The notes under the pieces: generated by a model | The model's input: only the letters and a program-made list of their open reading frames with translations | Told to the model about the DNA's origin: nothing | The model's database searches: none | Translations under genes and position numbers: made by a program | Source of the DNA: Caulobacter sp. | Lineage (GTDB): Bacteria > Pseudomonadota > Alphaproteobacteria > Caulobacterales > Caulobacteraceae | Assembly: GCA_016125585.1 (NCBI GenBank) | Contig: WGLL01000005.1 | Location: 682,001-746,000 of the forward strand | Direction: 5' to 3' | Length of the DNA stretch: 64,000 nucleotides | In this document: positions 40,609-64,000 of the stretch, piece by piece | How the letters are laid out: the number at the start of each line of letters is the position of its first letter | Numbering within the stretch: the stretch's first letter is position 1

Positions 40609-40620
40609 ACCGCGACCGCC

Positions 40621-42795: not shown

Positions 42796-42806
42796 GGAGA
42801 CCTGCC

Positions 42807-44421: not shown

Positions 44422-44425
44422 GCCC

Positions 44426-45103
44426 CTACCGGTCGCGGTCCCGGCGCCGCCCGGGGTCGATCCGGACCGGGCCGGGCGGTTCGGAGCGGCTTCGGACCGG
44501 CGCCTTTCGCTCGAGATGTTCGGCGGCGCGACTCCAGGCCCGGGCGAGCAGGCGGGCCCGCGCCTCCGGATCGCCGATCAGGCCGCGGACGACGACGGCG
44601 GCGCGCCGCAGGCGGTCCTCCAGATCGGCCGCGCGCAGAGGCGCCGGGTCGTCTGGCGCGCGGCCGGTCCGCCGATCCCGGGCCCTGGCGGGCTGGCCGG
44701 CGGCCTGCCGGTCGCGCTCGCCCGGCCGATGGCCCTTCACGGTGATGTCCAGAGCCTGGGCCTGGATCCAGACCTCGCGCTTGAAGGCGGCGTCGCCCTG
44801 CACCCGGACTTCCGTCCAGCCGCGATGGCGGGCGATCTTCAGCAGATCGGCGACGACGTCGGGATAGGCTTGGGCGGCGACCAGGGCGCGACCGGCGTCC
44901 CGGAACGCCGGCTCGGCCGCGCGATGGTCGCGGAAGAAGCGCTCGGCGCGTCCGCGCCGGTCGTGCTCGATCAGATAACGGTCGAGGAGCGTGGGCGGCA
45001 GATCGCCCTTGAGCCGCGACACGGCGGCCGGCTGGCCTGACGGCGCCAGCCGGTTCGGCGCGGGATCGGTTGGTGTTTTGTCGGGACGGGACGGGGCCCT
45101 CAT
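44426..45103 (-). CDS. LPD7-domain protein, stand-alone
   Basis: A 225-residue protein starting at ATG 45103 and overlapping the VirD4 stop by four bases. Residues ~30-130 match the large polyvalent-protein-associated domain 7: LPPTLLDRYLIEHDRRGRAE, then DLLKIARHRGWTEVRVQGDA and FKREVWIQAQALDI. In many elements this domain is fused to the relaxase; here it is separate and the last gene of the transfer operon. The C-terminus is Arg-rich and probably disordered. It may bind DNA in the relaxosome. Confidence 0.75.
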   Translation of the reverse strand: MRAPSRPDKTPTDPAPNRLAPSGQPAAVSRLKGDLPPTLLDRYLIEHDRRGRAERFFRDHRAAEPAFRDAGRALVAAQAYPDVVADLLKIARHRGWTEVRVQGDAAFKREVWIQAQALDITVKGHRPGERDRQAAGQPARARDRRTGRAPDDPAPLRAADLEDRLRRAAVVVRGLIGDPEARARLLARAWSRAAEHLERKAPVRSRSEPPGPVRIDPGRRRDRDR

Positions 45104-46962: not shown

Positions 46963-47935
46963 GCCAGACCTCCGTCAGCCGAAAGACGCCGTCGACCTTC
47001 TTCATCTGCACGACCACGTCGATCAACAGGTGCAGCAGGACGCGGATGTCGTCGCGTGGCAGATCGCGCCCGCCTTCGGACTCGCGGACCAGCAGGGTCA
47101 GCTGCTCGAAGGCGAGGGCGGCGGAATCGGCGTGCACCGTGGTGATCGAGCCGGGATGGCCGGAATTGACGTTGCGCAGGTAGAAGAAGGCGGTCCCGTC
47201 GCGCAGCTCCTGCAGCAGAATGCGGTCGGGCCGCATGCGCAGGGCGCTTTCCAGCAGCGCCTTGGCGGTGACCTTGGCCAGGCCCTGACCGTCCTTGGAA
47301 TAGATCAGGTGGACGACGTTGCGGTGCGGCACGACCAGCTCGCGGGTGTCCTCGATGGTCAGCAACCGCTCCTGGTCGGGGATCAACGCCACCAGGGCCT
47401 TGGCGAAGGTGGTCTTGCCTGAGCCGGTCGCGCCCGAGATCAGGATATTGCGCCGGGACCGCACGGCCAGGGCGAAGAAGCCCGCCCAGTCCGCGGCCTC
47501 GCGCCGCCGCACCAGCTCGGCGTCGGTCCCGTCCTGGTCGCCGCTCCGCGCCGACGCCACCTGATCGAACAGGCCGGCGGCCTGGAAATCGGCCAGCCCC
47601 AGCTGGCGCCGTGAGGGCTTGCGAATGGTCAGGGAGACCGCGCCGGCCGGGGTCGCCGGCGGCAGGACGATCTGGCAGCGCTCGTCGCCGGGCAGCACGG
47701 TGGAGCAGATCGGCCGTTCCTCGCCGACGTCCTGCTTGGTGAAGGCCGCCGCCGCGGTGGCCAGGGTGCGCAGCCACGCCTCGGTGAGCTGCGGCGCCTC
47801 GTGCCAGACCCAGTGGCCGGCGTGCTCGACTCCCACCTCGCCGGGCCGGTTGATGACCACCTCGGTGACGTCGTCCGGCTCGAGGAAGACGCGGATCGGC
47901 GCCAGGTAGTGGTCGAGGACGGCGGTGTCGTCCAT
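46928..47935 (-). CDS. virB11: VirB11/TrbB-type secretion ATPase
   Basis: A 335-residue hexameric ATPase of the type IV secretion system, starting at ATG 47935. Walker A is ISGATGSGKTTFAKAL (residues ~167-182). The His box GHPGSITTVHA and Asp box LTIEDTRELV are present. It overlaps virB10 by one base (TGATG) and virD4 by 35. It should switch the VirB4/VirD4 machinery between pilus assembly and DNA transfer. Confidence 0.93.
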   Translation of the reverse strand: MDDTAVLDHYLAPIRVFLEPDDVTEVVINRPGEVGVEHAGHWVWHEAPQLTEAWLRTLATAAAAFTKQDVGEERPICSTVLPGDERCQIVLPPATPAGAVSLTIRKPSRRQLGLADFQAAGLFDQVASARSGDQDGTDAELVRRREAADWAGFFALAVRSRRNILISGATGSGKTTFAKALVALIPDQERLLTIEDTRELVVPHRNVVHLIYSKDGQGLAKVTAKALLESALRMRPDRILLQELRDGTAFFYLRNVNSGHPGSITTVHADSAALAFEQLTLLVRESEGGRDLPRDDIRVLLHLLIDVVVQMKKVDGVFRLTEVWHEPARKRQPGD

Positions 47936-49050
47936 CAGCGGGCCCGCAGCCGGTAGACGCCGGCGAAGTCGAGATCCTGGGCCACGAAGATCGACACCTC
48001 CGCCCCCTGCGCCTTGCGCAGGGTCGGCGGGATGCCGATCGAGCCCTGCAGGGCGATGCCGGCGGCGTCGGAGGGCAGTCGGGTCGCGCCGCTCGCGCCG
48101 TCCTCGCCGAGGACGGCCTGGACGCCGTCGTCGACGACCGAGAGCAGCAGGGCGCCGCCGAAGCGTTGCCAGAAATGGGTGTCGACGTCGCCGTCGAAGC
48201 CAGCCCGCCCCAGCGCGTCGGCCGCCGGCGAGGCCAGGGTGACGGTGACGCCGGTCGGGGTCACCGCCCGGGTCCACAGCACGAAGAGACGGCCCTGGCC
48301 CTGCTGCAGGCCGCCGCGGTATTCGCCCAGCACCCGGGTGCCGCGCTCCATCAGCACCACGGCGCCGTTGTCGGAATAGATGTCCTTGGGGACGACGCAG
48401 CTGACGTAGCCGGGCGTCGAACTGTCCATCGCCGTCTGCAGGACGCAGGGCAGGGCGGCGCCGGCGACCAGCAGCAGGTTGCGGTCGGGCAGCCGGTCGG
48501 CCCGCGCCCGGGCGACCGGGCCCGCCTGGCGCAAGGCGTCGAGCGACGTAGGCGGCGCGGCTGGCGCTGTCGGGACCGAAGCCGCCCCCACGGAGGCCGG
48601 CGCCGACAGGGCCGGGCGGCTGTAGGCCAGCACCGGCGCCCGCTGGGCGCTCTCCAGCAGCGTGCGTCGCGCATCGGCCGGGGCGGGGCCGGCCCCGGCG
48701 GCGCGGGGCTCCAGCGCCGGGACCTCGGGACCCGGCTCGCTCCCGAGACCGGGGGCGAGCGGGTCAGTGGCGGCGTCGACCAGCCGCGGCGAGGGCTCGC
48801 GCCGCGCCGGCTCGAACGGGACCAGCTGCCGGGCCGGCGCGTCGGCGTCGGCCGGCCGCTCGGCGGCGCCGTCGCGGTCCCAGGTGGCCAGCAGGAACAC
48901 GCCGCAGCCGGCGGCCAGGGCCGCCAGGCTGATCCAGCGTCGCTGACCGCCGAAACGGCCGGCGATCGGCGAGATCGCCCGGTCCGCCTCCGCCGGAGCG
49001 GTTCTGGCCGGGCCTTCGTCGGCCGGGGTTTTGGGGCTTTCGGCGGTCAT
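47935..49050 (-). CDS. virB10: VirB10-type channel protein
   Basis: A 371-residue protein starting at ATG 49050. One membrane segment, WISLAALAAGCGVFLLATW (residues ~38-56), is followed by a long Pro/Ala-rich periplasmic linker and the C-terminal beta-barrel domain with VVPKDIYSDNGAVVLMERGT and GGALLLSVVDDG. VirB10 spans both membranes and forms the core complex with VirB7 and VirB9. It overlaps virB9 by four bases. Confidence 0.92.
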   Translation of the reverse strand: MTAESPKTPADEGPARTAPAEADRAISPIAGRFGGQRRWISLAALAAGCGVFLLATWDRDGAAERPADADAPARQLVPFEPARREPSPRLVDAATDPLAPGLGSEPGPEVPALEPRAAGAGPAPADARRTLLESAQRAPVLAYSRPALSAPASVGAASVPTAPAAPPTSLDALRQAGPVARARADRLPDRNLLLVAGAALPCVLQTAMDSSTPGYVSCVVPKDIYSDNGAVVLMERGTRVLGEYRGGLQQGQGRLFVLWTRAVTPTGVTVTLASPAADALGRAGFDGDVDTHFWQRFGGALLLSVVDDGVQAVLGEDGASGATRLPSDAAGIALQGSIGIPPTLRKAQGAEVSIFVAQDLDFAGVYRLRAR

Positions 49051-49874
49051 GGGCGGCCTCCCGCGGGAGCGCGCTCGACCTGCGGCGAGGCGGTGGCGGT
49101 CTCGCCGCCGACGCCTCTGGGGTCGAACGCCTCGTTGTAGATGCACAGCACCTGGCGTCCGCGTCGCAGACGAAGGCCGCGCTCGACGCCGTGGATGACG
49201 ACGTAGTCGCCGCGCACATCGAACGGGACCAGCCGCTCGCTGCCGTCCTCGGCGACGGCGAAGATGGCCGGCACCGCCTGGGCGCCGGGGAAGCGCAGCA
49301 CCGTGAAGCGGCCGTTGTCGGAGACCTCGCTGGGCTGCAGGTCGGCCGAGCCCTGGACGGAATAGGCGAGATTGCGCGGGCCTTCGGCCGCGCCCTGCTG
49401 CAGGGCGAGGCCGACCAGGCGGGTCTCGACCGCGACGGCGGCCGCCTCCACCGCCCGCAGGGCCCGCGCCTGTTCGTCAGCCGGGTAGCGGAAGCGGATC
49501 TGGTAGGCGGGCGTCCGGCCGCGTGCCTCGCCGGCGGCGAGCTCGAAGGCGTAGTGCCGGGACTGGCCGCCGCGGTCGGTCACGACCAGCAGGTTGGTGG
49601 CCTGATGCCGCTCCCGGGGCTTGAGGAACAGCACCGAACCCTCGGCGGCGACTTCCCAGGCGACGCTGTCGCCGACCGCCACATGGCGGATGGTCTCGTC
49701 GGGCGCGAACACCACCTGGGTGGCCGTGCGATAGGCCCCGACGACCCGATAGATGGCGTCGGGATCGTAGTCGATGACGCGGATGCGCGGGTCGGCGGGA
49801 TCGCCCGCGAGGGCGGCGGCGGGCGCCCCGAACACGGCCAGGGCCATGACGAGGGCAGGCAGCAGACGGTTCAT
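49047..49874 (-). CDS. virB9: VirB9/TrbG-type core complex protein
   Basis: A 275-residue protein with a cleavable signal peptide (LLPALVMALAVFGAPAAALA). It has the VirB9 features QVVFAPDETIRHVAVGDS, LFLKPRERHQATNLLVVTD and RRGRQVLCIYNEAFD. It forms the outer ring of the transfer channel with VirB7 and VirB10. The start overlaps the virB8 stop by four bases. Confidence 0.92.
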   Translation of the reverse strand: MNRLLPALVMALAVFGAPAAALAGDPADPRIRVIDYDPDAIYRVVGAYRTATQVVFAPDETIRHVAVGDSVAWEVAAEGSVLFLKPRERHQATNLLVVTDRGGQSRHYAFELAAGEARGRTPAYQIRFRYPADEQARALRAVEAAAVAVETRLVGLALQQGAAEGPRNLAYSVQGSADLQPSEVSDNGRFTVLRFPGAQAVPAIFAVAEDGSERLVPFDVRGDYVVIHGVERGLRLRRGRQVLCIYNEAFDPRGVGGETATASPQVERAPAGGRP

Positions 49875-50554
49875 CGGATGACCTCCGGATCGGCACGGTA
49901 CGAGATGACCTGGAAGCCGAGCGGATTGCGCAGGCGGTCGGCCTCGGACATCGGCGCGCGGGTGTAGGTGAAGGCGATGGTGGCGATCCAGTCGTTCTCG
50001 ACGACCTGCTGCGCCCGTCGCTCGACGCGGTGGAAGCGCACGTTGGCGACGCCGTCGTTGATGAAACCGATCGCGCGGATGGAGACCACCGCCTCGGCTT
50101 CCGGTCCGTACAGGTTCTGCGGGCTCTGCGGGTTGGAGCCGCGGTAGAGGTCGGCCCAGCGCCGCTGCTCGGCGCCGCCCGACAGGATCGAGACCAGGCG
50201 GAAGCTGTCCTCGGCCGCCGCGTCGAGATAGCCCTCGCGGGCCCGCACGTATTGGGCCAGGAAGAATTTGCTGATCGCCTCGTCATAGGTGGCCGGGCCT
50301 TCGCCACCGCCAAGGCCGCGGACCACGTCCACGGCCCCCGTCGCCTGGTCGACGCGGATCACGAACGGTTCGGTGGTCTTCAGCGGCGTCAGCGCCGCCA
50401 CGGCAGCGACGGAAATCGTCGCCAGGGCCGCCGCCGCCGCGGCCGCCGTCCAGGCCAGGCGGCGCGAGCGCAGGGCTTCGGCCAGACGGTCCTGGTCCCA
50501 GCGCCGGGCCTCGGCGAAATAGGCCTTCAGATCAGGGGCGGGAACGCCGGTCAT
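49871..50554 (-). CDS. virB8: VirB8-type assembly factor
   Basis: A 227-residue protein starting at ATG 50554. A cytoplasmic N-terminus is followed by one membrane segment (LAWTAAAAAAALATISVAAV) and a periplasmic NTF2-like domain with ISKFFLAQYVRAREGY and IATIAFTYTRAPM. It nucleates the inner-membrane part of the secretion channel. It overlaps both neighbours by four bases. Confidence 0.9.
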   Translation of the reverse strand: MTGVPAPDLKAYFAEARRWDQDRLAEALRSRRLAWTAAAAAAALATISVAAVAALTPLKTTEPFVIRVDQATGAVDVVRGLGGGEGPATYDEAISKFFLAQYVRAREGYLDAAAEDSFRLVSILSGGAEQRRWADLYRGSNPQSPQNLYGPEAEAVVSIRAIGFINDGVANVRFHRVERRAQQVVENDWIATIAFTYTRAPMSEADRLRNPLGFQVISYRADPEVIR

Positions 50555-50760
50555 GCGCAGCCTCCGCCGGACGGGGGTGCGGCCTCGGAAGTCTGCGGCT
50601 GCGGCGGCGGCGCCGGGGCGGCGATCAGCGTCGAGCCGTGCGGATTGGCCGGCCAGCGATGGCGGCCGTCGCAGATCGGGGCGTTGCCGCCGCCGAGGCT
50701 GGCGCACCCTGTCAGGCTCGCGGCGGCGGCGACGAGCATCAGAAGGCGGGGGAGGGTCAT
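50551..50760 (-). CDS. Small lipoprotein in the VirB7 position
   Basis: A 69-residue protein starting at ATG 50760 with a lipoprotein signal, LMLVAAAASLTGCASLGG, and a Pro-rich tail (APAPPPQPQTSEAAPP). Its location between virB6 and virB8 and its size match VirB7, which anchors the core complex in the outer membrane. Sequence identity is too low for a firm family call, so this is by position and signal. Confidence 0.75.
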   Translation of the reverse strand: MTLPRLLMLVAAAASLTGCASLGGGNAPICDGRHRWPANPHGSTLIAAPAPPPQPQTSEAAPPSGGGCA

Positions 50761-51683
50761 GAGCGGGCTCCGGTGGGTCGAATGGATCCGCCGCCGCGCG
50801 GCGGCTGCCGGCCTGCTTCCTGCGGTCCGAGGGCGCGGCCCGAACCGCTGGTTCCGAGCGCGGCGGCGTTGGCGAAGTCGGCCAGGCCGGCGCTGGCGCC
50901 GCCGGCGATCCCCGCGGCGATGGCCGGGGTCTGCAGGAAGAAGATCGCGCCGAGCAGGCACAGGGCGATGAAGATCAGGCCGCCGATCATCGGGTCGCCG
51001 CCCTCGATCGCGCCCCACTGGTCGCGCACGAGGGCCAGGACCAGCTGGAAGATGACGATGATCAGGGCGAACAGGACCAGGTAGTTCACCGCCTGGCTCA
51101 GCCAGCCGAAGAAGAAGCGGCGGGTGGCGTCGAACAGGGCGCAGGCGATGAAGATCGGTCCGAGCGTGACCAGCAGGGCCAGGGCCAGCTTGGCGACCAG
51201 CACCACGCCGAAGCCGAGCGCCGCAGCCAGGGCGCCGATGATGAACACCGCCGCCGAAACCACATAGGGCGCGGGATTGAAGGCGGAGGCGTCGCGGCTG
51301 ATCTTTTCGCCGAGGTAGGCCGCATAGGCGAAAAACTGGTCGAAGGCGGCCCCGACGCTGGGCGTTCCGGCCCCGCTGATCGCCTGGGTCAGGGCGTTGG
51401 GCAGGTCGGTGAACAGGGGCCGGGTGACGAAGTCGCCATAGGCGGCGGTGGTGGCCAGCAGGTAGATGAAGACCAGCTTGATGCCGCGGATCGCGAAATC
51501 CATGATCGGTTCGCTGATCGCGCCGCGGAAGATGGCGTAGCCGTAGAGCACGATGTAGAGCACCAGCGCGACGCGCAGCGGCCCCTCCACCTGGACGATC
51601 ACCGACGACAGCCGGTCGCCGAGGAAGTCGTTCAGCCGCGCGTCGATGAAGTCGTAGCTTGGCTCGAAGACCCGGAACTGCAT
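50757..51683 (-). CDS. virB6: VirB6/TrbL-type membrane protein
   Basis: A 308-residue polytopic membrane protein starting at ATG 51683. At least five hydrophobic segments are visible, e.g. VALVLYIVLYGYAIF, VVSAAVFIIGALAAALGFGV and LVLFALIIVIFQLVLALV. It matches the VirB6 family, which lines the inner-membrane passage. It overlaps the lipoprotein gene by four bases and starts 13 bases after the EexN-like gene. Confidence 0.88.
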   Translation of the reverse strand: MQFRVFEPSYDFIDARLNDFLGDRLSSVIVQVEGPLRVALVLYIVLYGYAIFRGAISEPIMDFAIRGIKLVFIYLLATTAAYGDFVTRPLFTDLPNALTQAISGAGTPSVGAAFDQFFAYAAYLGEKISRDASAFNPAPYVVSAAVFIIGALAAALGFGVVLVAKLALALLVTLGPIFIACALFDATRRFFFGWLSQAVNYLVLFALIIVIFQLVLALVRDQWGAIEGGDPMIGGLIFIALCLLGAIFFLQTPAIAAGIAGGASAGLADFANAAALGTSGSGRALGPQEAGRQPPRGGGSIRPTGARS

Positions 51684-51696
51684 GGGCGCTTCTCCC

Positions 51697-51909
51697 TCAG
51701 AAGGCCCGCCGATAGGCGGCCATGCGCTCGCGCCGGCCCGCCTCGGCCAGACCGGCCCGGGCGGCCGCGCAGTCGCCGCGCCGGGCGCCGGCGTCGCAGG
51801 CGGCCACGACCGCGCGGGCCGCGGCCGGATCGACGGCGAAGGCCTCCGCCGTTCGCGGCGGCGGCGAGCAGGCGGCCAGAACCAGACCGGCGAGCAGGGC
51901 GGCCCTCAC
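51697..51909 (-). CDS. EexN-like entry exclusion lipoprotein
   Basis: A 70-residue protein starting at GTG 51909, which overlaps the virB5 stop (GTGA). It has a lipobox, LLAGLVLAACSPP, and two cysteines in the mature part spaced as in EexN (VVAACDAGARRGDCAAARAG). EexN-type lipoproteins stop a cell carrying the element from taking in another copy. The call rests on position between virB5 and virB6, signal and cysteine pattern. Confidence 0.7.
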   Translation of the reverse strand: MRAALLAGLVLAACSPPPRTAEAFAVDPAAARAVVAACDAGARRGDCAAARAGLAEAGRRERMAAYRRAF

Positions 51910-52631
51910 CGGAAGGCCCGCTCGTAGACGCTCATGCGCGCGGCGCGGGCGGCCTCGGCCTGTTCGCGGGCGCGCTGCTCTTCCAGCCGCGCCTCGGCCG
52001 CCTGCATCAGGGCCAGGCCCTGCAGCCGCACCTGTTCGTTCTGGATCAGCGCCTGCTCGGCGGCCAGGCGGGCGTCGAGATCCATCACCGCCCGGGCGTT
52101 GGGAGCCGTATCCAGCGCCCGGCGCAGGGTCTCCAGACCCTCCAGCCGCGCGTCGGCGGCCTGGCCGACCGCTTCGCCGAGGGCGAGGTCGCGGGCCGTC
52201 CGCAGGCCCGAGCGCTCGAGACTGTCGCGGTAGTAGGCCTCGGCCGGCCCGGTCTCGCCGGCCGGCGGCGCGTAGAGCCGGGTCTCGCGGCGGATGGCCT
52301 CGGCCCGCTCGGCCAGGGCGCCCAGGGCCGAGAGGTCGCCGTCGGCGGCGGCGCGCAGGGCGGCCATGTCCGGCAGCGGATTGCGGACCTCCGGCAGGCC
52401 GAGCTGGCCGGCCAGGGCGTTGACGTCCGACAGCTGGTTGAGGCTGTCGAACAACTCGTCGCCCTGTTCGATCTGTTTCTTCAGCGCCTCCAGCTGCTGC
52501 AGGGCCGTGAGGGCGTCCTCGATCATCCTGGCGTAGGCCATCGGGTCGTAGACGATCTCCTGCGCCTGCGCCGGGACACCGGTCAGGACGATCAGGGCGG
52601 CGCCGGCGGCGCCGAGGAGTCGGGTCTTCAT
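51906..52631 (-). CDS. virB5: VirB5/TrbJ-type minor pilus protein
   Basis: A 241-residue protein; ATG 52631 is preferred because it begins a clean signal peptide (MKTRLLGAAGAALIVLTGVP) and overlaps the virB4 stop by four bases. The mature part is helical and coiled-coil-like (ALTALQQLEALKKQIEQGDE and LAAEQALIQNEQVRLQGLAL), as in VirB5/TrbJ pilus-tip proteins. Confidence 0.87.
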   Translation of the reverse strand: MKTRLLGAAGAALIVLTGVPAQAQEIVYDPMAYARMIEDALTALQQLEALKKQIEQGDELFDSLNQLSDVNALAGQLGLPEVRNPLPDMAALRAAADGDLSALGALAERAEAIRRETRLYAPPAGETGPAEAYYRDSLERSGLRTARDLALGEAVGQAADARLEGLETLRRALDTAPNARAVMDLDARLAAEQALIQNEQVRLQGLALMQAAEARLEEQRAREQAEAARAARMSVYERAFR

Positions 52632-55003
52632 GGGAACCTCCGTTGGGCATGAAAGGGGTCGCGCCACTGCGCGTAGTCGTCGCCATGCTCAGCGCGCAGG
52701 CGGTCGAGCAGGGCCACCGTCTCGCTGCGGCCCGACAGGATGGCCAGTTCGTCGTCCAGGCCCGTCAGGTCGAGTTCGACGACGACGCTGTCGTGACCTT
52801 GCTTGACCAAGAAGCGATGCGACTCCGGGGTCAGGGCGTCGCGGATCAGCCGGAACTCCTCGCCGGTCAGGCCGAAGCCCTCGACGTAGTCGCGCGCCTG
52901 GCCGTGCGGGTTGGGCAGGAAGATTTTGGTGGCGCACTGCTCGAGGATGGCGTGGGCGATCGGCGAACGCAGGGCGTCGGCCGGCGACTGGGTGCCGAAC
53001 ACCATCAGGGCGTTCTGCTTGCGCCAGGTCTTCAGCCCGTCCTGGGCGAGGTCGGTGAAGGCCGGATCGCCGAGCACCTTCCAGAACTCGTCGATGTCCA
53101 GCACCAGCCGGCGGCCGTCGACCCGTTCGGCGATGCGGTGGAACAGATAGAGCATGACCGGGGTGCGGATTTCGGCGTGATCGAGCACCTGGGTCAGGTC
53201 GAAACCGGCGAAGCGGGTCTCCAGCGACAGGGCGTCCTCGTCGTTGTCGAGCACCCAGCCGAGCGGGCCCTCCCGGGTCCAGCGCTCCAGCCGCGCGCCG
53301 ACGCCGCCGCCGTCGGCCTGGCCCAGCACGCTGCGCAGGGCGGTCAGGGAGCGACGTTCGCGCGGCAAGGCTTCGAGCGCCGCCACGCCGTCGTCGATGG
53401 CCCGCGCCTGCACCACCGTCAGGGGATCGCCGTCCCGCGCCACCAGGGCCCGGACCAGCTTGACCAGGAAGGCGCGGTTGCCAGGCCCCGGCGCGAGGGC
53501 CTTGAACGGGGCGAAGCCGGTCGGCTCGCCGTTGCGCAGGGTCAGATAGGTTCCGCCGCAGGCGCGCACGAAGAGTTCGGCGCCCCGGTCCTTGTCGACG
53601 AACAGCTGCTGGGCCCCGAGCCGTTCCAGCTGGGCCAGCATGAAGTTCTGGACCACGGTCTTGCCCGAGCCGGAGGGGCCGCAGATGAAGGTGTGGCCGA
53701 GGTCGCCGACATGGAAGTTGAACCAGAAGGGCGAGCCGGCCGTGGTCCTCAGCAGGGCCACCGCCGGTCCCCAGTGGTTGCCGCGGGCCTTGCCGACCGG
53801 ATGGGCGTGGAAGGGCGCCAAGGCCGCGAAGTTTCGCGAGGTGATGGCCGCCGGGCGCGTGCGCCGGGCGAACGCCCCGGGGAACTGCGCCCAGAAGGCC
53901 GCTTCCAGGCCGAGGTCCTCGCGCGCCACCACCAGGCCGGAATCGGCCAGCAGGGCGCGGGCCTTGGACAGGTGGTCGGCGAGCTCGCCGGGTCCGGCTC
54001 CATAGACCAGCACCGAGGCCTGGTGCTCGCCCATCACGAAACGGTTGCTGACCAAGTCGTCGAGGGCGTCGGACAGGCCTTCGATCTGCGAGGCGGCCCG
54101 GTCGCGCGCCGAGACCATCTGGTTCTGCTTGCGCTCCATCACCGCCCGGGCCGAGGCCTTGGACAGGAAGGCGAAGGACTGGCTGATCACGAAGGCAAAG
54201 GGCGCGCTCAGCAGCGCGTCCCACAGGCCCGGGCGGGTCGAAGCCGGATATTCCTTAACCGCCAGGACGCCGGCGTAGCGGGCGTCGCCGACATCGCGCA
54301 GTTCCAGGCTCTCGCGGCCGAAGATTGCCCGCACCGCATAGACCGCCGAGCCCAGGTGGCCGCGGACGACGGGCACGCGGCTCGGACGGCCGGTCAGGAT
54401 CAGTCGCATGGCCTCCATCGGCTCGGAGAACCACAGGCCGCCGCGCGCATAGAGGCCGAGCGGCCGGGGCGCGTAGCGGGCCAGATACTGGGCGAGGTCC
54501 CGCCCGGCCTCCTGCAGCCGCTTGGCCGCCTCGGGCTCGACCTCGACGCCGGCCCGCCGGGCCGCCTTCAGCCGGCCCATCATCGCTGAGGCGCGGTCGC
54601 CGGTCGCCCGGCCGGGGTGCAGGACCAGGCTCACGAAGAGGTCGTTGACGAACATCCGCCGGCCGACGAGACGGGCCTCATAGGCGGCGTTCAGGTCGCG
54701 GGCGAAGGCGGAGCGGAACCCGGTCGCCGGCTCGGCCGCGACCTCGCGCCGGACGACGTGGTGCCACACCGCCAGGCGATCGTCGGCGAGGTTGCGCCAG
54801 GTTTGGTTCAGCTTGACGTGCCAGTCGTTGAGGTCGCGCGCGTCCGCCGTCTCGAAGGCGGCGCCAGCGAGCTGGAAGCAGAGCATCAGGGCGCCGCTGT
54901 CGAGGGCCACCACCTGGTCGTCGACATGGCGCGCGAACGGCATATTGGCGCGGACATCCGCTTCGCGCCGCAGCCGGGCCGGGGAGACGCGCGCCTCAGC
55001 CAC
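52628..55003 (-). CDS. virB4: VirB4-type secretion ATPase
   Basis: A 791-residue protein starting at GTG 55003. Walker A is CGPSGSGKTVVQNFML (residues ~438-453) and Walker B is LVLDIDEFWKVLGD. The N-terminal CagE/TrbE-VirB domain includes MPFARHVDDQVVALDSGALM. It powers pilus assembly and substrate transfer. It begins seven bases before the virB3 stop is reached on the other side, i.e. just after virB3. Length is normal for the family. Confidence 0.93.
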   Translation of the reverse strand: MAEARVSPARLRREADVRANMPFARHVDDQVVALDSGALMLCFQLAGAAFETADARDLNDWHVKLNQTWRNLADDRLAVWHHVVRREVAAEPATGFRSAFARDLNAAYEARLVGRRMFVNDLFVSLVLHPGRATGDRASAMMGRLKAARRAGVEVEPEAAKRLQEAGRDLAQYLARYAPRPLGLYARGGLWFSEPMEAMRLILTGRPSRVPVVRGHLGSAVYAVRAIFGRESLELRDVGDARYAGVLAVKEYPASTRPGLWDALLSAPFAFVISQSFAFLSKASARAVMERKQNQMVSARDRAASQIEGLSDALDDLVSNRFVMGEHQASVLVYGAGPGELADHLSKARALLADSGLVVAREDLGLEAAFWAQFPGAFARRTRPAAITSRNFAALAPFHAHPVGKARGNHWGPAVALLRTTAGSPFWFNFHVGDLGHTFICGPSGSGKTVVQNFMLAQLERLGAQQLFVDKDRGAELFVRACGGTYLTLRNGEPTGFAPFKALAPGPGNRAFLVKLVRALVARDGDPLTVVQARAIDDGVAALEALPRERRSLTALRSVLGQADGGGVGARLERWTREGPLGWVLDNDEDALSLETRFAGFDLTQVLDHAEIRTPVMLYLFHRIAERVDGRRLVLDIDEFWKVLGDPAFTDLAQDGLKTWRKQNALMVFGTQSPADALRSPIAHAILEQCATKIFLPNPHGQARDYVEGFGLTGEEFRLIRDALTPESHRFLVKQGHDSVVVELDLTGLDDELAILSGRSETVALLDRLRAEHGDDYAQWRDPFHAQRRFP

Positions 55004-55331
55004 GGGCCAACTCCCCCGCGCGGTAGCGGCGGACCAGGGGCAGGGGCGTGGGCGAGCTGCCGCCCCATAGCCCGCCGTTGCGGGAGCGCCCTTTGGTGTC
55101 GACATAGACCAGCAACAGCCGGAAGGCGTTGTGATCGACCTTGCAGATGCCACGGAAGACCAGGTGGAGGACGGGGGCGATCAGCAGGTAGAGCAGGCTG
55201 CCGCCCACCAGGAACACCAGGCCCGAGACGATGACGTTGACGCCCATTGCCTCCATCGGCACGCCCAGAACCATGGCCGGGCGGGTGCAGGCCAGGAACA
55301 GCGGGTCCTCGATCAAGCGCTCTTCAGCCAT
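54996..55331 (-). CDS. virB3: VirB3-type protein
   Basis: A 111-residue protein starting at ATG 55331. It has LIEDPLFLACTRPAMVLGVP, the family's N-terminal signature, and two membrane segments (VNVIVSGLVFLVGGSLLYLL and APVLHLVFRGI). VirB3 works with VirB4 in the inner membrane. Its stop overlaps the virB4 start region, and its own start overlaps the end of the small membrane protein gene. Confidence 0.9.
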   Translation of the reverse strand: MAEERLIEDPLFLACTRPAMVLGVPMEAMGVNVIVSGLVFLVGGSLLYLLIAPVLHLVFRGICKVDHNAFRLLLVYVDTKGRSRNGGLWGGSSPTPLPLVRRYRAGELARG

Positions 55332-57339: not shown

Positions 57340-57617
57340 GACCTCGACTTCACTCCTGTCGGCTGGGGCCGCCGAGACTACCGCCCTCGCACCCCTACTG
57401 GTTGAAAAATGCGGCGCCCGAGCCTCAAATGAAAGATGGCAAAGAAACGGTGTCGAAAACCTTGCGACATGACGCAAAGAACCTGCGGATACATCGCGAA
57501 AGCTTGCGGGCATTGGGGCTATACCGCATTCGCTGGGCGCGGGATCGGCCGCCGGCGAGGTCCGGCGCGAAAGGCGCGTCCTCCCGCCCTCGTCTCCCGC
57601 CGCGGGGAGCGGGCAAG

Positions 57618-58232
57618 GTGAAGGATCGCGATCCCTACCACAGCGCCCTCAACGCCCTGGCCGGTTTCGCCGCCGCGGGCCGGTTCGGTTGGGGCGAGCC
57701 GCTCGTCGCCACCGCTTTGGCCGAGGAGCTGCGCCTCAGCCCCACGCCGGTGCGCGAAGCCCTGGCGCGGCTGGCCGGGGAAGGGGTTCTCGAGCATCGG
57801 CCGGGCCGCGGATATTTTGCGCCAAGCCCGACGGCGTCCGACATCGCCGACCTCTACGAACTGCACCGCCGGCTGACTCACTGGGCGCTGGACGTCGCCC
57901 CGGGGGCCGCGGCGACCGCCATCGGGGAGCCGTCGGCTCCGGATCTGCGCCTCGAGATTCTCTACGCGACGATCGCGGCGTCGGCCGGCGCCGATATCCT
58001 GACCCGCGCCCACCGACGGGTCATGCTCCAGCTCCGCCCCATCCGCGCGGTCGAGGCGGCGGTGCGACCGGCCGAGATCGAGCAGATCGCCCGGCAGGAG
58101 CGGTTGCTGGCGGCGGGCCGCGTCGCCGAGCTACGGGCCGAGGTGGACGCCTATCACGAAGGCCGCCGGCTCGCCGCGCCCGCGGTGTTCGCAGTCATGC
58201 GGCGGTCGGGTCAAAGTATAGAGCGAATATAG
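57618..58232 (+). CDS. GntR-type regulator of the lasso peptide cluster
   Basis: About 204 residues from GTG 57618 (MKDRDPYHSALNALAGFAAA). An open frame extends upstream to TTG 57402 but looks non-coding. The winged helix is LVATALAEELRLSPTPVREA followed by LARLAGEGVLEHRPGRGYFA, typical of GntR/FadR-type proteins; the C-terminal helical domain is short and divergent. It lies 71 bases before the precursor gene on the same strand and is the likely cluster regulator. Confidence 0.78.
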   Translation: MKDRDPYHSALNALAGFAAAGRFGWGEPLVATALAEELRLSPTPVREALARLAGEGVLEHRPGRGYFAPSPTASDIADLYELHRRLTHWALDVAPGAAATAIGEPSAPDLRLEILYATIAASAGADILTRAHRRVMLQLRPIRAVEAAVRPAEIEQIARQERLLAAGRVAELRAEVDAYHEGRRLAAPAVFAVMRRSGQSIERI

Positions 58233-58242: not shown

Positions 58243-58303
58243 GGACTGGGCGCGCGCCGACTGTGCGGGCGGGGCATTCCGTCCCGTCCAAGGAGGTTCC
58301 ACC

Positions 58304-58531
58304 ATGAACACCCAGACCTCGCCGCGCCTTATCGGGCTCGGCTCCGCTCGGCGCCACACCCGCGCCGATTCCCACATCGGCGACATGGAGCTGATCCCGG
58401 TCCGTCTCTATGAGCCGACCGGCGTCCGCGCCGACGTCGTCCGGCTGGGCTCGGCCGAACAGGCCACCCGCGCCGACTCCCCCACCGGCGATTTCGAACT
58501 GATTCCGGTGCGGCTCTGGCAGCAGGGCTGA
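58304..58531 (+). CDS. Lasso peptide precursor with two leader-core units
   Basis: A 75-residue peptide starting at ATG 58304, with AAGGAGG just upstream. Residues 7-20 (PRLIGLGSARRHTR) fit the leader pattern P-x-L-x-x-L-G-x-A-x-x-x-T-x, with Thr at -2. That predicts core 1 from Ala21: ADSHIGDMELIPVRLYEPTG. LGSA-x-x-x-TRADS then recurs at residue 48, with core 2 from Ala57: ADSPTGDFELIPVRLWQQG, to the C-terminus. The two 24-residue blocks 12-35 and 48-71 are identical at 18 positions. Asp7 or Glu9 of each core could close the ring onto Ala1. A B protein, C synthetase and isopeptidase follow. Confidence 0.8.
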   Translation: MNTQTSPRLIGLGSARRHTRADSHIGDMELIPVRLYEPTGVRADVVRLGSAEQATRADSPTGDFELIPVRLWQQG

Positions 58532-58586: not shown

Positions 58587-59216
58587 ATGACCCGCTACCT
58601 CAAACCGGACGTCCACGCCGTCGCCATCGGGGACGACCTGGCGGTGCTCGACATCGCCGACGACGCCTACCTGTGTCTGCCGGGCGGCGCGGCGGTCCTG
58701 ATCGGCGGAGGCGGGATTGCGCCCGGTCCGATGGCCGAGGCGCTGGGCGAGGCCGGGCTGCTGTCGGCCGAGCCGCCGCCCGGGACAAGGGCATCGCCGC
58801 CGTCGCCTGCAAGATCGATCATCCATGAGCCCCGCGCCGAACCGGCGGGGCCGCGGGCGCTGCTCGCCGCCGCCGGCGTCGTGGCCGACCTTCGCAAGGC
58901 GCGGGCCGGGCAGGGGCTTGCTCCCTATCTGGCCCTTGCCGAGACCCGGGCCGGCCTGTCGCGCGATCCGGAGGCGGTTCTGGCGGCGGCGCGGTTGTTC
59001 TGGAAGCTCAGCCCCTGGCTCCCGGTTGAAGGGGAATGCCTGCCGCGCTCGGCGATGTTGATCGCCTTCCTGCGCCGCCGCGGCCTGGCCGCCGACTGGG
59101 TGTTCGGCGTGCGCCTCTGGCCGTTCAACGCCCATTGCTGGGTCCAGGCCGGCGACGTCTGTCTCAACGACGATGTCGAGCGGCTCTGGGCCTATACGCC
59201 GATCTACTGCCGATGA
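58587..59216 (+). CDS. Lasso peptide B protein (leader-binding domain fused to leader peptidase)
   Basis: A 209-residue protein starting at ATG 58587. The N-terminal ~80 residues are a PqqD-like leader-recognition domain (DVHAVAIGDDLAVLDIADDA). The C-terminal transglutaminase-like cysteine protease has Cys in LPVEGECLPRSAML, His in PFNAHCWVQ and Asp in VCLNDDV. B removes the leader so that C can form the macrolactam. The fused B1-B2 form is normal in Proteobacteria. It overlaps the C gene by four bases (ATGA). Confidence 0.9.
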   Translation: MTRYLKPDVHAVAIGDDLAVLDIADDAYLCLPGGAAVLIGGGGIAPGPMAEALGEAGLLSAEPPPGTRASPPSPARSIIHEPRAEPAGPRALLAAAGVVADLRKARAGQGLAPYLALAETRAGLSRDPEAVLAAARLFWKLSPWLPVEGECLPRSAMLIAFLRRRGLAADWVFGVRLWPFNAHCWVQAGDVCLNDDVERLWAYTPIYCR

Positions 59217-61159
59217 AGGTCCCCGGTCCCGCCGACAACGGCTATCTGGTTATCGACCGGCGACGCGCTGGCGAAGGCGACCGCCGGGCGATCGACCGGG
59301 TCCTGGCCGCCCTAGAACGGAATGGCTGGCGGCCGTTTGGTCCGGTCGAGGATATCTGCGTCCTGCTCGCGCCGCGCTCGCACTTCGCCGTCCGCCAGGT
59401 CGGACGGCAGCACTTCCTGATCGGCGACTGGCGGGGGCCCGATGGTCCCTTGTCGACCGTGATCGCGCGCAGCACCGGCCCAGCCGACCTGGCCCGGGTC
59501 GCGGTCGCGTCGGGCTGGGGCCGCTACATCCTGGTCTGGCGGGACGACGAGGGACGCCTCGCCCTGCTGCGCGATCCCACCGGCGCCCTCGACTGTGTCT
59601 GGTGGCGCCATGGCGGGGCGGTGATCGCCGCCCGCGAACCGCCGCGTCTGGTTGACGCCCTGCTGCCGGCCGACCTGGCCATCGACTGGCCGGTGCTGGG
59701 CGAGATCGCCAGGGCGCCCGAACTGCTCGGCGACCGGCTGGCCCTGCGCGGCCTGACCGCCGTCAATCCGGGCGCGATCAGCGTCATCGGCGAGACGGCG
59801 GAGGCCACGGCCGTCTGGCGGCCGGCGAGCTTTTGCCGGTCCGGGCGGGGCTGGGACGAGAGCCATGAGGGCCTGGTCGCGGTGGTAGACGCGACCGTGG
59901 CGGCCCTCGTCGCGCCGCATCGCCGGCTCGCGGCCGAACTCTCAGGCGGGCTGGACTCGGCCATCGCTGCCGCCAGTCTCAAGGCGTCCGGGCACGCCGG
60001 GCGCGCCGGCTTCCTCAACTTCCATGGCGACTGGCGCGAGGGCGACGAGCGGCCCTACGCCATGGCGGCGGCGTCGCAGCTGGGTCTGGACCTGACCACG
60101 GTGCGCAAGCCGGTCGAGGCGATCACCCTGGCGCAGCTCAATCCGCTGGGCGACAGCGTCCGGCCCGCTCTGCAGGGCGTCGATGTCGCCTATGACGCCG
60201 AAGTCGCCGGGCGGATGCGCCGGCGCCGGGCGACCGGGCTGCTCACCGGCCAGGGCGGCGACGCGGTGTTCTTCCAGGCTCCCGATCCGGCCGTGGTCGT
60301 CGACCGTCGCCGCCGGGAGGGCTTGGCGGGCCTGTCGCCGGCCTTCATCGCCGCCGTGGCGCGCTGGACCCGGCACTCGGCCTGGACGGTGCTCGGCTAC
60401 GCCCTCGGCGGCCCGTCGGGCGAGCGGGCGGCCTCCGGGACGCGCCGCCATCCCTGGCTGGAGGAGGTTGACGACCTGCCGCCGGCCAAGGCCGGGCAAC
60501 TGCGGCAGTTCGTCAACGCCCAGCTGTTCTGGGGAGATTGCCTGCGCGCCCGCGCGGGCGACCTGCTGCACCCCTTCCTCAGCCAGCCGGTGGCTGAGCA
60601 CTGCCTGGCCATTCCGGCCGACCGGCTGATCGCCGGGGTGCGGGACCGGGGTCTGGCACGGCAGGCCTTCGCGCCCCGCCTGCCGTCGATGATCGTCGAG
60701 CGCCGCAGCAAGGGCGACCTCAGCCATTTCTACGGCCAGGTGACGCGCGCCAGCCTGCCGACCCTGACGCCGCTGCTGCTCGACGGGCTGCAGGCCGCCC
60801 ACGGCCTGCTCGACCGCAAGGCGCTCGAGGCGGATCTGACGGAAGCCCGTCTGATCTGGAGCCCCGGCTACAACCGGCTACTGGTCAGCGCCGTGCTGGA
60901 GGTCTGGGCCCGGCGCTGGCAGGCGCGGATCGCCGACATCCGCCGGGCGCACATGGCGGTCGAGCCAGTCGAGGATGCGGGTGTGCAGGTCGCGCAGGTT
61001 GGCCGGGCTGACGAAGACATGACCCTCGCCGGCGTAGGTGACCAGCGCCGCCTCCCGGCCGAGCCGGTAGAGGGCGCCGAACAGCACATCGGCGCCGGCC
61101 GGATCGAGGTCGCCTTCGATGAGCAGCGTCGGCGTGCGGATCTGGCTCGCGACGTATAG
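59213..61159 (+). CDS. Lasso peptide macrolactam synthetase (C protein, asparagine synthase-like)
   Basis: A 648-residue protein starting at ATG 59213. The N-terminal region resembles a glutaminase domain without the usual N-terminal Cys, as in other C proteins. The ATP-binding loop LAAELSGGLDSAIAAA places SGGLDS at residues 244-249; LLTGQGGDAVFF and SPGYNRLL follow. It activates the ring Asp/Glu as an AMP ester and joins it to the core N-terminus. Homology appears to end near residue 580; the last ~68 residues are read through the 3' end of the convergent isopeptidase gene, giving a 282-base antisense overlap. Confidence 0.88.
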   Translation: MKVPGPADNGYLVIDRRRAGEGDRRAIDRVLAALERNGWRPFGPVEDICVLLAPRSHFAVRQVGRQHFLIGDWRGPDGPLSTVIARSTGPADLARVAVASGWGRYILVWRDDEGRLALLRDPTGALDCVWWRHGGAVIAAREPPRLVDALLPADLAIDWPVLGEIARAPELLGDRLALRGLTAVNPGAISVIGETAEATAVWRPASFCRSGRGWDESHEGLVAVVDATVAALVAPHRRLAAELSGGLDSAIAAASLKASGHAGRAGFLNFHGDWREGDERPYAMAAASQLGLDLTTVRKPVEAITLAQLNPLGDSVRPALQGVDVAYDAEVAGRMRRRRATGLLTGQGGDAVFFQAPDPAVVVDRRRREGLAGLSPAFIAAVARWTRHSAWTVLGYALGGPSGERAASGTRRHPWLEEVDDLPPAKAGQLRQFVNAQLFWGDCLRARAGDLLHPFLSQPVAEHCLAIPADRLIAGVRDRGLARQAFAPRLPSMIVERRSKGDLSHFYGQVTRASLPTLTPLLLDGLQAAHGLLDRKALEADLTEARLIWSPGYNRLLVSAVLEVWARRWQARIADIRRAHMAVEPVEDAGVQVAQVGRADEDMTLAGVGDQRRLPAEPVEGAEQHIGAGRIEVAFDEQRRRADLARDV

Positions 61160-63331
61160 CGGGCTGCCCGTGACATAGGCCTGGGGTTGATCGAGCAACG
61201 AGGCGCCGATCGCGCCTTGGCCGGTCTCGGCCCAGCCGACCAAGGCGTTGATCGGCACGCCGTCGTCGGGCGAGACCAGGAAATGCGGCGGCAGCGCATA
61301 GATCCGCGACAGGTCGGCGTAGCCGGCCGCCGCCACCACCGCCCGGAACCGGTCGCTCTGCGACGCCGCCAGCAGTACCCCGTAGCCGCCGTAGCTGTGG
61401 CCGACCAGGCCGACCCGGGCCGGGTCGACGGGGGCCTGGACAGCGGCGGCGTCGACGATCGTCCCGATCCGCTCCGCCAGGTCGTCAAGCTGCGGACCGG
61501 CGCCGGCGGGCCGTGGCAGGCTCGGCACGAGGACGGCGTAGCCGGCGGCGGCCAGCACGGCCGGATTGATGTGCAGGCGTTCGCCGCCCGGCCGCAGCCA
61601 GGCCGGGGCGGAGGCGTAGGCGGCGCCGGGATAGACGATCACGACCACCGGGAGCCGGTCGCCCGGCGCGGCGCCGGGCGGCAGCAGCAACCAGCTGGTC
61701 AGGGCCTGACCCTCGGGGCCCGTATGGGCGATCGGGGTGATCGTCCCCCAGGCCAGGGCGTCGAAGGCGGCGTTGACCGTCCCCAAGGGGTGGATGCCAT
61801 CCAGCGCGTGCAGCCGCAGGCTCATTGACCCGCCCGACGTCCGCCGCTGGGCGATCAGATAGTCCCGCGTCGGGCTAACCGCGACCAGGGTTTCGTCGGC
61901 CGACAGCGGCGCGGGGCAGGTCCGCGCCGCCGGGGCGGACAGGCGGCTCACGCAGCCGTCCGGACCGACCAGGCCGCGCCGGCCCCGCTGGACGCCGTCC
62001 GGGTTCCAGCCTTGCCGGCTGCCGCCGTCCGCCGCCCGTTCGCGGTCCCAAAGCCGGCCGGGCAGGGCGGGCGCGGTCGGGTCGGCGGCGAAGGGGCGCA
62101 GGCCGTCGGCGCGTTCGATCCAGGTGCGTCCGCTGACCTCGAGCAAGGTTTCGCGCGGCTCGACGACCGGGACCGAGACGGACGCCGGGCCGCCGCGAAG
62201 CCAGACCCTGTCGCCTGCGGCGGTGCGGACCTGCGCCACCGGTTGTCCCGCGCTCCAGCCGGCGCGGGCGATGGGGATCCTGCCGACCTCGGCGTCCAGC
62301 CAGGGGCGCGCCTCGCCGAGCCGGAGTGGTTCGGCCGCTCCGCGACGAGCGAGAGTCCAGAACCGGCCGTCTGCCCACTCGCCGCCGGCGTCGCGGGCGA
62401 AGGCGATCAGCCGACGGGAGTCGGGCGACCAGGACAGCAGGTGCGAGAGGAAGTCCTGGTCGGGCAGGGGCTCGACGGCCGCGCCCCGGTCGAGGTCGAC
62501 CAGAAGCAGGCGACGCCGCCGGCTCGGCGTGCCGACGTCGACCGGCGTCTCCCCGCCGGCCTGCAGGTCCTCGGCGTTGAGCAGGGCCGCGACGGCGCCG
62601 CCGTCCGGGGAGAGCTCCAGGTCGAAAAGCTCGCCGCGCGCCAGCACCCGCTCCTCGTCGCGGGCGAGATCGAAGAGGACCAGTCGCGCCGCGGCCGACC
62701 GGTCGCGGCTGTCGCGCGCCGCGCCGCTGGGAATGACCACGGCGGACGGCGCGTGGCCGGCCGCGAAGGCCCGCCACAGCCCCGTCTTGCGGGCTTCGGT
62801 CTGGGCGCCGAGGCGGAACACCAGGGGCAGGTCGCCGTCCGGACGGGCGATCGCCACCAGCTGCGTCTCCGAGCGCCAGGCGACGGTGCGGCCCAGTTCG
62901 GTGAACTCCGGCGTCAGCGGCAGCCAGCGCACCTCGCCGGTGGCCAGGGTCATGACGCCCAGGGTGCGGGCGGTCTCGCGCAGACGGACGACCAGCATCT
63001 GCTCGCCGCTGGGCGAGAAGGGGCCGGAGACGTAGCCGCTGGCGTGGCCCGGGTCCTCCAGCCGGCGCACGAGGTCCCCGGCCGGCGTGTGGACCTCTAG
63101 CCCGCTGAGCAGGTGCGAGGTCATCAGCCCGAAGCGGTAGGTCGCCGCCGATGACCAGGCGGCCCGGCGCTCGACCACGATCCAGCGCCCGTCCGGGCTG
63201 ATCCGCACCGACCCCAGGCTTTCCTGGCCCAGCAGGGCCTCGAGGGTGACCGGCGCCCGCGCCTGGCCCATGACCGGGACCGCCGTCGCCAGCAGCGCGA
63301 CGGCCAACCCGCAACCCACTATGCGGCGCAT
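60878..63331 (-). CDS. Lasso peptide isopeptidase, AtxE-like (S9 prolyl oligopeptidase fold)
   Basis: An 817-residue protein; ATG 63331 overlaps the receptor stop (TGATG), GTG 63334 is also possible. A signal peptide (GLAVALLATAVPVMGQA) sends it to the periplasm. A beta-propeller-like region is followed by a C-terminal hydrolase with Ser in GLVGHSYGGYG, Asp in EGDLDPAGAD and His in GEGHVFVSP. AtxE2-type enzymes open the lasso's isopeptide bond, probably after import through the TonB receptor. About 20 residues extend past the usual end, inside the C gene overlap. Lasso context supports isopeptidase over a general S9 peptidase. Confidence 0.82.
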   Translation of the reverse strand: MRRIVGCGLAVALLATAVPVMGQARAPVTLEALLGQESLGSVRISPDGRWIVVERRAAWSSAATYRFGLMTSHLLSGLEVHTPAGDLVRRLEDPGHASGYVSGPFSPSGEQMLVVRLRETARTLGVMTLATGEVRWLPLTPEFTELGRTVAWRSETQLVAIARPDGDLPLVFRLGAQTEARKTGLWRAFAAGHAPSAVVIPSGAARDSRDRSAAARLVLFDLARDEERVLARGELFDLELSPDGGAVAALLNAEDLQAGGETPVDVGTPSRRRRLLLVDLDRGAAVEPLPDQDFLSHLLSWSPDSRRLIAFARDAGGEWADGRFWTLARRGAAEPLRLGEARPWLDAEVGRIPIARAGWSAGQPVAQVRTAAGDRVWLRGGPASVSVPVVEPRETLLEVSGRTWIERADGLRPFAADPTAPALPGRLWDRERAADGGSRQGWNPDGVQRGRRGLVGPDGCVSRLSAPAARTCPAPLSADETLVAVSPTRDYLIAQRRTSGGSMSLRLHALDGIHPLGTVNAAFDALAWGTITPIAHTGPEGQALTSWLLLPPGAAPGDRLPVVVIVYPGAAYASAPAWLRPGGERLHINPAVLAAAGYAVLVPSLPRPAGAGPQLDDLAERIGTIVDAAAVQAPVDPARVGLVGHSYGGYGVLLAASQSDRFRAVVAAAGYADLSRIYALPPHFLVSPDDGVPINALVGWAETGQGAIGASLLDQPQAYVTGSPLYVASQIRTPTLLIEGDLDPAGADVLFGALYRLGREAALVTYAGEGHVFVSPANLRDLHTRILDWLDRHVRPADVGDPRLPAPGPDLQHGADQ

Positions 63332-64000
63332 CACCAGGCCCGGGTCAGCTGCAGCGAGATGAAGCGGCCGATGACGTTGGTGTTGGCCGCGTCGTAGCCG
63401 ATGCCCTCGGGGGCGTTGTAGAAGGGCGGGTCGCGGTCGAAGGCGTTCTGGACGTTGAGCGCAATGGTCGTGCCCTGCAACGGGCCGGACTGCGGTTCAT
63501 AGCGGACCTGCAGGTCCAGGGTGACCCAAGCGTCGATCCGGGCGCCGGCCAGGTCTTCGTAGCCATCGACATAGTTGACCGAGGAGGACAGGCCCCAGTC
63601 GCCGCGCGACCAGGCCACCGTGCCCCGGCCGCGCAGCCCGACCGGATAGTTGGGACGGTTACGCAGAGACACGGCCGCCGACTTGGGCGTGGCCTGGCTG
63701 TCGAACCGGCCGAGATATGAGAAGGCCAGGTTCAGGTCGAAGGCGTTGGCCCCGACCTCGAAATCGTAGCCGGCGCTGACGTCCACGCCCTCGACCTCGA
63801 CGCGGGCAGTGTTGACGTAGCGGGCGTCGACGATCGCGCCATAGGACGTCGCTGGAAAGGCGTCGGCGAAGCCGGTGGTCGGCAGGTCGAGGATGGCCTG
63901 GACGGCGGCCCGGTCGTCGGCGTTGTTGAGCGGATCGACCAGCTGGATGAACGGCGACAGGGCCGGGTCGGTCAGGGCCGTGAGGATGTTCTCGAAGGTC
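63331..64000 (-). CDS. TonB-dependent receptor, C-terminal part (runs off window)
   Basis: The frame is open from the window end to a stop at 63331. It shows the C-terminal beta-barrel strands of a TonB-dependent receptor: VEVEGVDVSAGYDFEVGANA, FDLNLAFSYLGRF, and IALNVQNAFDRDPPFYNAPE, ending in the aromatic FISLQLTRAW required for outer membrane insertion. It overlaps the isopeptidase start by one base. In astexin- and caulosegnin-type clusters such a receptor is encoded with the isopeptidase and probably imports the lasso peptide. Confidence 0.88.
   Translation of the reverse strand, partial: TFENILTALTDPALSPFIQLVDPLNNADDRAAVQAILDLPTTGFADAFPATSYGAIVDARYVNTARVEVEGVDVSAGYDFEVGANAFDLNLAFSYLGRFDSQATPKSAAVSLRNRPNYPVGLRGRGTVAWSRGDWGLSSSVNYVDGYEDLAGARIDAWVTLDLQVRYEPQSGPLQGTTIALNVQNAFDRDPPFYNAPEGIGYDAANTNVIGRFISLQLTRAW

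Follow-up and report, generated by a model that had tools for sequence, protein, structure and literature searches.

The lasso precursor gene of the window (the whole stretch of DNA that was analysed, 64,000 nucleotides) encodes two complete leader-core units in a single chain, which by sequence makes it multi-core (two or more complete cores per chain). We consider it probable that this chain is a polyprotein-like lasso precursor of the order leader-core-leader-core, both cores of which would be matured by one B protein and one C protein. Our reading builds on the observed repeat, its conservation, the constraint on the cores, the gene cluster, and a series of relatives in which the units stand in one gene or in many.

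The tandem precursor and its gene cluster

The ATG-started open reading frame at 58304-58531 (+ strand) gives the 75-residue product MNTQTSPRLIGLGSARRHTRADSHIGDMELIPVRLYEPTGVRADVVRLGSAEQATRADSPTGDFELIPVRLWQQG. As the sequence-only reading had claimed, residues 12-35 and 48-71 form a repeated block, with 18 of 24 residues identical and the units 36 residues apart. This was confirmed by self-alignment of the precursor, which scored 89, whereas 2000 shuffled versions scored 18 on average and no higher than 34, and a chance origin of the repeat was thereby ruled out. The DNA of the gene shows a 108-nt period, with a 53-nt stretch of 81% identity. Both units carry LGSAxxxTR/A (the slash marks the predicted cut), with Thr at position -2, a small residue 1, Asp or Glu at core positions 7-9, and Glu at core position 9; the earlier statement that each unit has an LGxA...T motif ahead of an Ala as residue 1 was thus borne out. 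The parts of the precursor were assigned as follows:

58290..58296, + strand: Shine-Dalgarno sequence AAGGAGG of the precursor gene (read by eye)
58304..58531, + strand: lasso precursor A, 75 aa, two leader-core units (ORF and repeat analysis)
58304..58363, + strand: leader 1, residues 1-20, ending in LGSARRHTR (G, A, T and R of the motif invariant in 21 chosen units)
58364..58411, + strand: core 1, residues 21-36 (Ala1, Glu9, Tyr16), predicted 9-residue ring (unit comparison, pN/pS)
58412..58444, + strand: linker, residues 37-47 (homologue alignment)
58445..58471, + strand: leader 2 motif LGSAEQATR, residues 48-56 (invariant in six sequences, the window and five homologues)
58472..58528, + strand: core 2, residues 57-75 (Ala1, Glu9, Trp16; homologue and unit comparison)

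The linker comprises the core 1 tail, which blends into the upstream portion of leader 2; the linker varies in sequence and length, and its spacing is not equal between the groups of relatives described below. The window precursor had no match at E<=1 among the curated NCBIfam lasso precursor families, and none of these models exceeded its cut-off on the precursors of six relatives (best NF033521, 17.8 bits vs 19).

The genes around the precursor are the following:

57402..58232, + strand: regulator of the GntR family, ahead of the precursor (start codon uncertain; PF00392 GntR, 40.9 bits)
58587..59216, + strand: B, an N-terminal RRE-like part and a B2 leader peptidase (NF033537, 76 bits, cut-off 33; PF13471, 78 bits)
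59213..61159, + strand: C, lasso cyclase of the asparagine-synthase type (PF00733, 80.4 bits, cut-off 21)
60878..63334, - strand: S9 peptidase with a signal-like N terminus (by eye), candidate lasso isopeptidase (PF00326, 65.4 bits)
63331..64000, - strand: 3' end of a TonB-dependent receptor gene that runs out of the window (same-contig extension, Pfam)

A gene for a B2-type peptidase adjoining the precursor and an asparagine-synthase-like C, both features of lasso clusters, are thus present. The gene order is that of the isopeptidase type, in that a GntR gene precedes A, while a TonB receptor gene and sigma/anti-sigma genes follow the S9 gene. Past the window, the same contig carries the rest of the TonB-dependent receptor, then FecR and then an ECF sigma factor (Pfam; at 9332-12298, 12385-13374 and 13382-14065, respectively, in the coordinates of L116). 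GntR-like ORFs were also seen upstream of the precursors in L005, L120 and L124, by eye and without a domain scan.

For the N terminus of B, the AlphaFold model was of low confidence (mean pLDDT 54.5), and its three best PDB matches were chains of TbiB1 (E 0.26-0.31), headed by the lasso RRE TbiB1 with its leader (5v1u, prob 0.89, E 0.26); no PDB entry matched the model at E<=0.001. A search for a PqqD-type Pfam domain in B gave no match at E<=1, and neither did B match the PDB when searched by sequence. Judging from the structural model, the N terminus of B is probably an RRE. A match to C was found in 34/34 loci examined, and C of the window scored under the cut-offs of the dedicated NCBIfam cyclase models (69.5 of 300 and 30.6 of 525). 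Likewise, the S9 protein reached 75.9 bits with the Atxe2-type isopeptidase model NF033523, under its cut-off of 400.

The C and S9 genes converge and overlap by 282 nt (60878-61159), so that the last 282 nt of C are antisense to S9. At L097, the last ~60 residues of C have their match antisense to S9 at a distance of about 2 kb, so the overlap may have given rise to the C-terminal extension of C as a by-product.

Fused and separate-gene relatives

A scan of genome contigs yielded five full-length homologues with 79-96% identity, of which four come from records named Brevundimonas and the fifth from a Caulobacterales MAG. Conservation of the C-terminal unit alone, which had been named beforehand as speaking against two tandem units, was not what we observed, as both units are present in 5/5. 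Together with the retention of Glu9, L/Q10 and an aromatic residue 16 in internal units, this makes two tandem leader-core units the right description. The sequence-only reading had also asked for single- and double-unit precursors among relatives, and both were found, in addition to three-unit forms.

When 390 genomes from the window's family were searched with a profile, 37 matched, and reading of the loci revealed fused precursors in 22 of the 390. Two units are encoded in 14 genomes (G000, G122, G164, G169, G198, G223, G150, G156, G175, G129, G211, G192, G226 and G245; G198, G164, G223, G122 and G169 are loci L003-L007), three units in 7 (G199, G218, G143, G184, G186, G187 and G206), and one gene is interrupted. 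B and C genes lie downstream of the fused precursor in 22/22. All but one of the fused genomes (21/22) belong to genus group g6, presumably Brevundimonas; the window genome falls in a different genus group, g1, and is the sole strong match among 75 genomes there, 57 of which match at E<=1, with a best E value of 0.017 beside the window genome. Since homologues are frequent in another genus group, a one-genome oddity was ruled out.

Two loci carry interruptions. In G123 (L113), a two-unit gene has its first leader out of frame and its unit 2 open, for which natural loss of unit 1 and sequence error are both possible; the S9 match at this locus is in two pieces. In L003 (Brevundimonas sp. A19_0), 332 nt, not a multiple of three, are absent from the cyclase gene at about 7540, with the precursor intact; the gap is either a true loss or an assembly error, and other loci hold intact copies.

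We also found a separate-gene form, in which single units occupy two or three consecutive genes of ~40 codons before B (for example, G137, G210, G142, G139, G209, G177, G230, G145, G125, G179 and G181). A mixed form is present in G245, whose two-unit gene precedes a one-unit gene in which the leader has diverged. At L104 (2423-2865), the two-unit precursor is followed by a one-unit third gene with the leader LCGNIRQATR, rather than LGxAxxxTR, and the core ASDFGDRTELVPPYGY. Weak unit matches at the corresponding place in G192 and G226 suggest that the mixed two-unit plus one-unit form may occur there as well.

An alignment of 21 hand-chosen units showed G, A, Thr(-2), Arg(-1) and Glu9 to be invariant. 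In the 21 fused precursors that are intact, 19/19 distinct internal and 13/13 distinct terminal units have Glu9, L/Q10 and an aromatic residue at position 16, while Thr(-2), Arg(-1) and Ala1, found in 32/32 distinct units, are partly set by the search pattern, which required Thr-Arg and then Ala or Gly. An earlier pattern had required an acid at 7-9; these filters lost none of the 24 genomes with E<1e-8 (the 21 intact fused ones, G123 and two single-unit clusters). Since Glu9 occurs in all distinct units, a 9-residue Ala1-Glu9 ring is predicted for all of them, and ring closure at Asp7 was rejected, as Glu9 alone is universal. Position 16 is Tyr in 19/19 distinct internal units and Trp in 10/13 distinct terminal units.

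In a tree of 44 cyclases (22 from fused loci, 12 from single-unit loci and ten further lasso cyclases), the rows of the 22 fused loci fell into one clade (100/99), apart from the rest. This first tree included joined pieces and the columns of the C/S9 overlap; a second tree without both gave the fused clade again (100/99; 100% of 200 bootstrap trees), its long branches meeting in the outgroup. The three-unit forms stand on two separate branches and have middle cores that are alike at 10/16 positions; two gains and repeated losses of the middle unit are both possible.

Comparison of the cores, with one representative per group, showed that in groups II, III, IV and VI first cores resemble first cores (9-13/16) and last cores resemble last cores (10-15/16) more than first cores resemble last ones (4-6/16), so that these groups have maintained two parallel core lineages. 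Group V cores belong to neither lineage (4-7/16 with other groups). In the window's group, core 1 shares 12/16 residues with its own last core and 5-7/16 with other first cores, which suggests that a later copy event may have taken place between its cores. Because of this likeness and the position of group V outside both lineages, distinct products are not evident in every group.

We further looked for the fused trait in the wider set of lasso clusters. NF033537 matched in 176/390 family genomes, and 110 B2 loci were subjected to a repeat test: 30 delivered, five of them of the known fused clade, and 80 hand-picked among the matches listed, the choice omitting known fused and some contig-edge loci. 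B2 was re-found in 104/110. Among the best 25 of 607 upstream ORFs by self-similarity, precursor-like repeats occurred in five loci, all of the known clade; other high-scoring ORFs were dismissed by eye as Arg/Pro-rich or out-of-frame, and weaker repeats may escape this test. Of 385 genomes sampled from the class, only the window genome (G000) had convincing units, with 4 other weak matches, and a search of plasmids gave no match. As far as sampled, the fused trait looks like one invention inside the family.

Across the 12 kb surrounding the precursor, identity is 91-93% with L003 and about 91% with L004, as against 85% and 87%, respectively, over a 1665-nt segment of rpoB; L005, L006 and L007 show the reverse, with about 74-80% for the 12-kb region and 83-86% for rpoB. 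From such identities, it is plausible that the lone occurrence in g1 arose by inter-genus transfer on a conjugative element.

Upstream, a conjugation module (41707-55153 of the window) adjoins the lasso cluster. The following genes were assigned by Pfam, and more VirB genes were seen by eye:

41707-42738: relaxase
45103-46962: VirD4-type
52631-55153: VirB4-type

An ArdC-type antirestriction gene and an AbiEii nucleotidyltransferase gene (type IV toxin-antitoxin) lie near the conjugation genes, within 39730-44421, and synteny with L003-L007 holds from about 52.3 kb of the window on.

Proposed processing of the chain

For leader binding, the two cuts, the two cyclisations and the trimming, we propose the following course. 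The RRE part of B would bind the LGxA-type motif of each unit, and B2 would cut after Thr-Arg in each, at R20/A21 and R56/A57. C would then link Glu9 to the newly exposed amine of Ala1 and so close a 9-residue ring, in which the tail would be held close to aromatic residue 16; excerpts of PMC10368454 support the roles of Thr(-2), RRE and B2. Since closure of core 2 requires a free Ala57 amine, the R56/A57 cut would also separate the units, and core 1 would be freed with leader 2 as its C-terminal tail, ending at R56 until it is trimmed, probably by housekeeping carboxypeptidases. A second protease is not required, because the R56/A57 cut by B already parts the units, and B is the obvious cytosolic endoprotease. 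The extra cleavage after core 1 that the sequence-only reading had called for is thus not needed for separation, whereas trimming of the core 1 tail is still expected.

According to passages of a 2026 review (PMC13352647), astexin-1, pandonodin and others tolerate tail extension well, even with fusion proteins, although such extension typically brings a significant drop in product, and endogenous carboxypeptidases trim tails. The pandonodin tail is 18 residues long. As these passages describe tail extensions as tolerated, a core 1 bearing the leader 2 tail appears feasible. For the window strain, the calculated monoisotopic lasso masses are 2110.05 for core 2 (19 aa), 1809.91 and 2194.07 for core 1 ending at its residue 16 or 20, and 3903.01 for core 1 with leader 2 (36 aa); for Brevundimonas alba DSM 4736 (L006), which has a two-unit precursor, the corresponding values are 2178.05, 1757.87, 2142.03 and 3907.03. 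Several observations count against a polyprotein, namely the drop in product on tail extension; G123, with its first leader out of frame and unit 2 open; the copy-like core 1 of the window's group and the position of group V outside both core lineages; the low confidence of the model behind the RRE assignment; and L003, with its cyclase gene interrupted despite an intact precursor.

Alternatively, core 2 alone might be matured, with unit 1 acting as a lengthened leader or as a decoy, holding on to B and C before being degraded. Core 2 does sit at the usual C-terminal position, and G123 has kept unit 2 open behind a broken first leader. However, a leader or decoy needs no Glu9, yet this residue is kept in every distinct internal unit; first cores have their own lineage in groups II, III, IV and VI, and relatives encode such units as stand-alone genes. 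Furthermore, in eight tree pairs without a common branch, pN/pS was 0.17 for internal cores (28 silent and 16 nonsynonymous differences) and 0.31 for terminal cores (12.7 silent and 12.3 nonsynonymous), with 0.22 for leaders, 0.21 for linkers, 0.97 for the residues ahead of leader 1, and 6 nonsynonymous but 0 silent differences in the tail behind residue 16. Another choice of pairs, two of the eight on a common branch, gave 0.16 for internal and 0.17 for terminal cores, and all within-group pairs, which are non-independent, gave 0.25 and 0.22. Internal cores are constrained at least as much as terminal ones, on small counts, and a degenerating first core was not supported by the low internal-core pN/pS, again with small numbers. 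The suggestion that the first unit is a decoy or degenerate copy is thus disfavoured, and we regard maturation of core 2 alone as unlikely.

The fate of core 1 could also differ from that in the polyprotein reading. It might mature into a lasso of 36 residues (21-56), with the working leader of the next unit as its tail; by retaining the enzyme for that unit, the tail could let one precursor be processed stepwise, ring by ring, like an assembly line. To such an arrangement we give rather little credence.

Both cores might instead be matured for dosage, the repeat giving two near-equal lassos per transcript and not two different products. This would suit the window's group, in which the cores are alike as after copying (12/16 vs 5-7/16 with other first cores), and L005 and L007, which show one L-to-Q change in both units. 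Across the representatives of groups II-VI, first and last cores within a precursor share only 4-6/16 residues, so that dosage is no general reason for the repeat, and we hold it to be quite improbable.

A separate endoprotease, rather than B, might free core 1 by cutting the linker behind Tyr16, a residue which is constant in internal units, as against mostly Trp in terminal ones, and might mark a cut site. Against this, the linker varies in sequence and length, and in 19/22 fused loci C and S9 either overlap or are no more than about 250 nt apart, leaving no space for a protease gene between them, and no further protease gene was seen there; of the exceptions, L097 has the two genes about 2 kb apart, and L005 and L096 lack an S9 match in the stretch examined. 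A dedicated protease of this kind is very doubtful.

Finally, a decaying or unexpressed unit, the repeat being a relic of gene duplication, is highly improbable, for although L003 has a cyclase gene put out of frame by its 332-nt gap and L113 a broken first leader with the S9 match in two pieces, pN/pS values of 0.17-0.31 put both cores, the leaders and the linker well below 1, apparent freedom from constraint is confined to the stretch ahead of leader 1 and the terminal tail, and the fused cyclases form one old clade. We therefore retain the polyprotein-like precursor as the preferred reading.

Relation to known lasso and multi-core systems

Relatives that range from separate genes to fusions of two and three units, together with a matching enzyme clade, make the processing questions testable. 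They raise the questions of how long a chain a lasso cyclase threads through a ring in nature and whether one enzyme pair can work along a chain, and they provide natural enzymes with which several lassos could be produced from one transcript. In passages of PMC10349150, the repeat-aware core finder of a mining tool is described as enabled for cyanobacterial YcaO clusters and plants only; with this limitation, tandem lasso precursors could be misread.

The window cluster can be compared with three kinds of known systems. The first are the isopeptidase-type proteobacterial lasso clusters, which we take to be those of the astexin, benenodin and caulonodin type. The order GntR-A-B-C-S9 peptidase-TonB receptor-FecR/sigma (excerpts of PMC9266682) and a leader with Thr(-2) are common to both, whereas the present clade has two or three full leader-core units per precursor gene, and the S9 protein here is far under the cut-off of the Atxe2 model. 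The second is the caulosegnin cluster of Caulobacter segnis, in which several lasso cores are likewise processed by the same biosynthetic enzymes (passages of PMC13352647), but from three separate precursor peptides instead of one fused chain.

The third are the multi-core RiPPs of other classes, and the resemblance to these lies in the architecture of the precursor. Cyanobactins, PsnA2-type graspetides and pheganomycin are such systems. Their precursors likewise hold several cores each (excerpts of PMC9484694), and repeated leader/follower patterns are described for cyanobactin and plant precursors in parts of PMC10349150. They differ in chemistry; in the present precursor, each core is preceded by its own complete leader, and ring closure involves the core's N-terminal amine, which forces separation of the units. 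Lasso precursors generally consist of one leader and one C-terminal core, according to passages of PMC13352647, and we found no multi-core lasso precursor in the open-access literature, a scope outside which most subscription journals fall and which was seen in part. With caulosegnin cores known from separate precursors and multi-core precursors known from other RiPPs, what appears to be new is the leader-core tandem within the lasso class.
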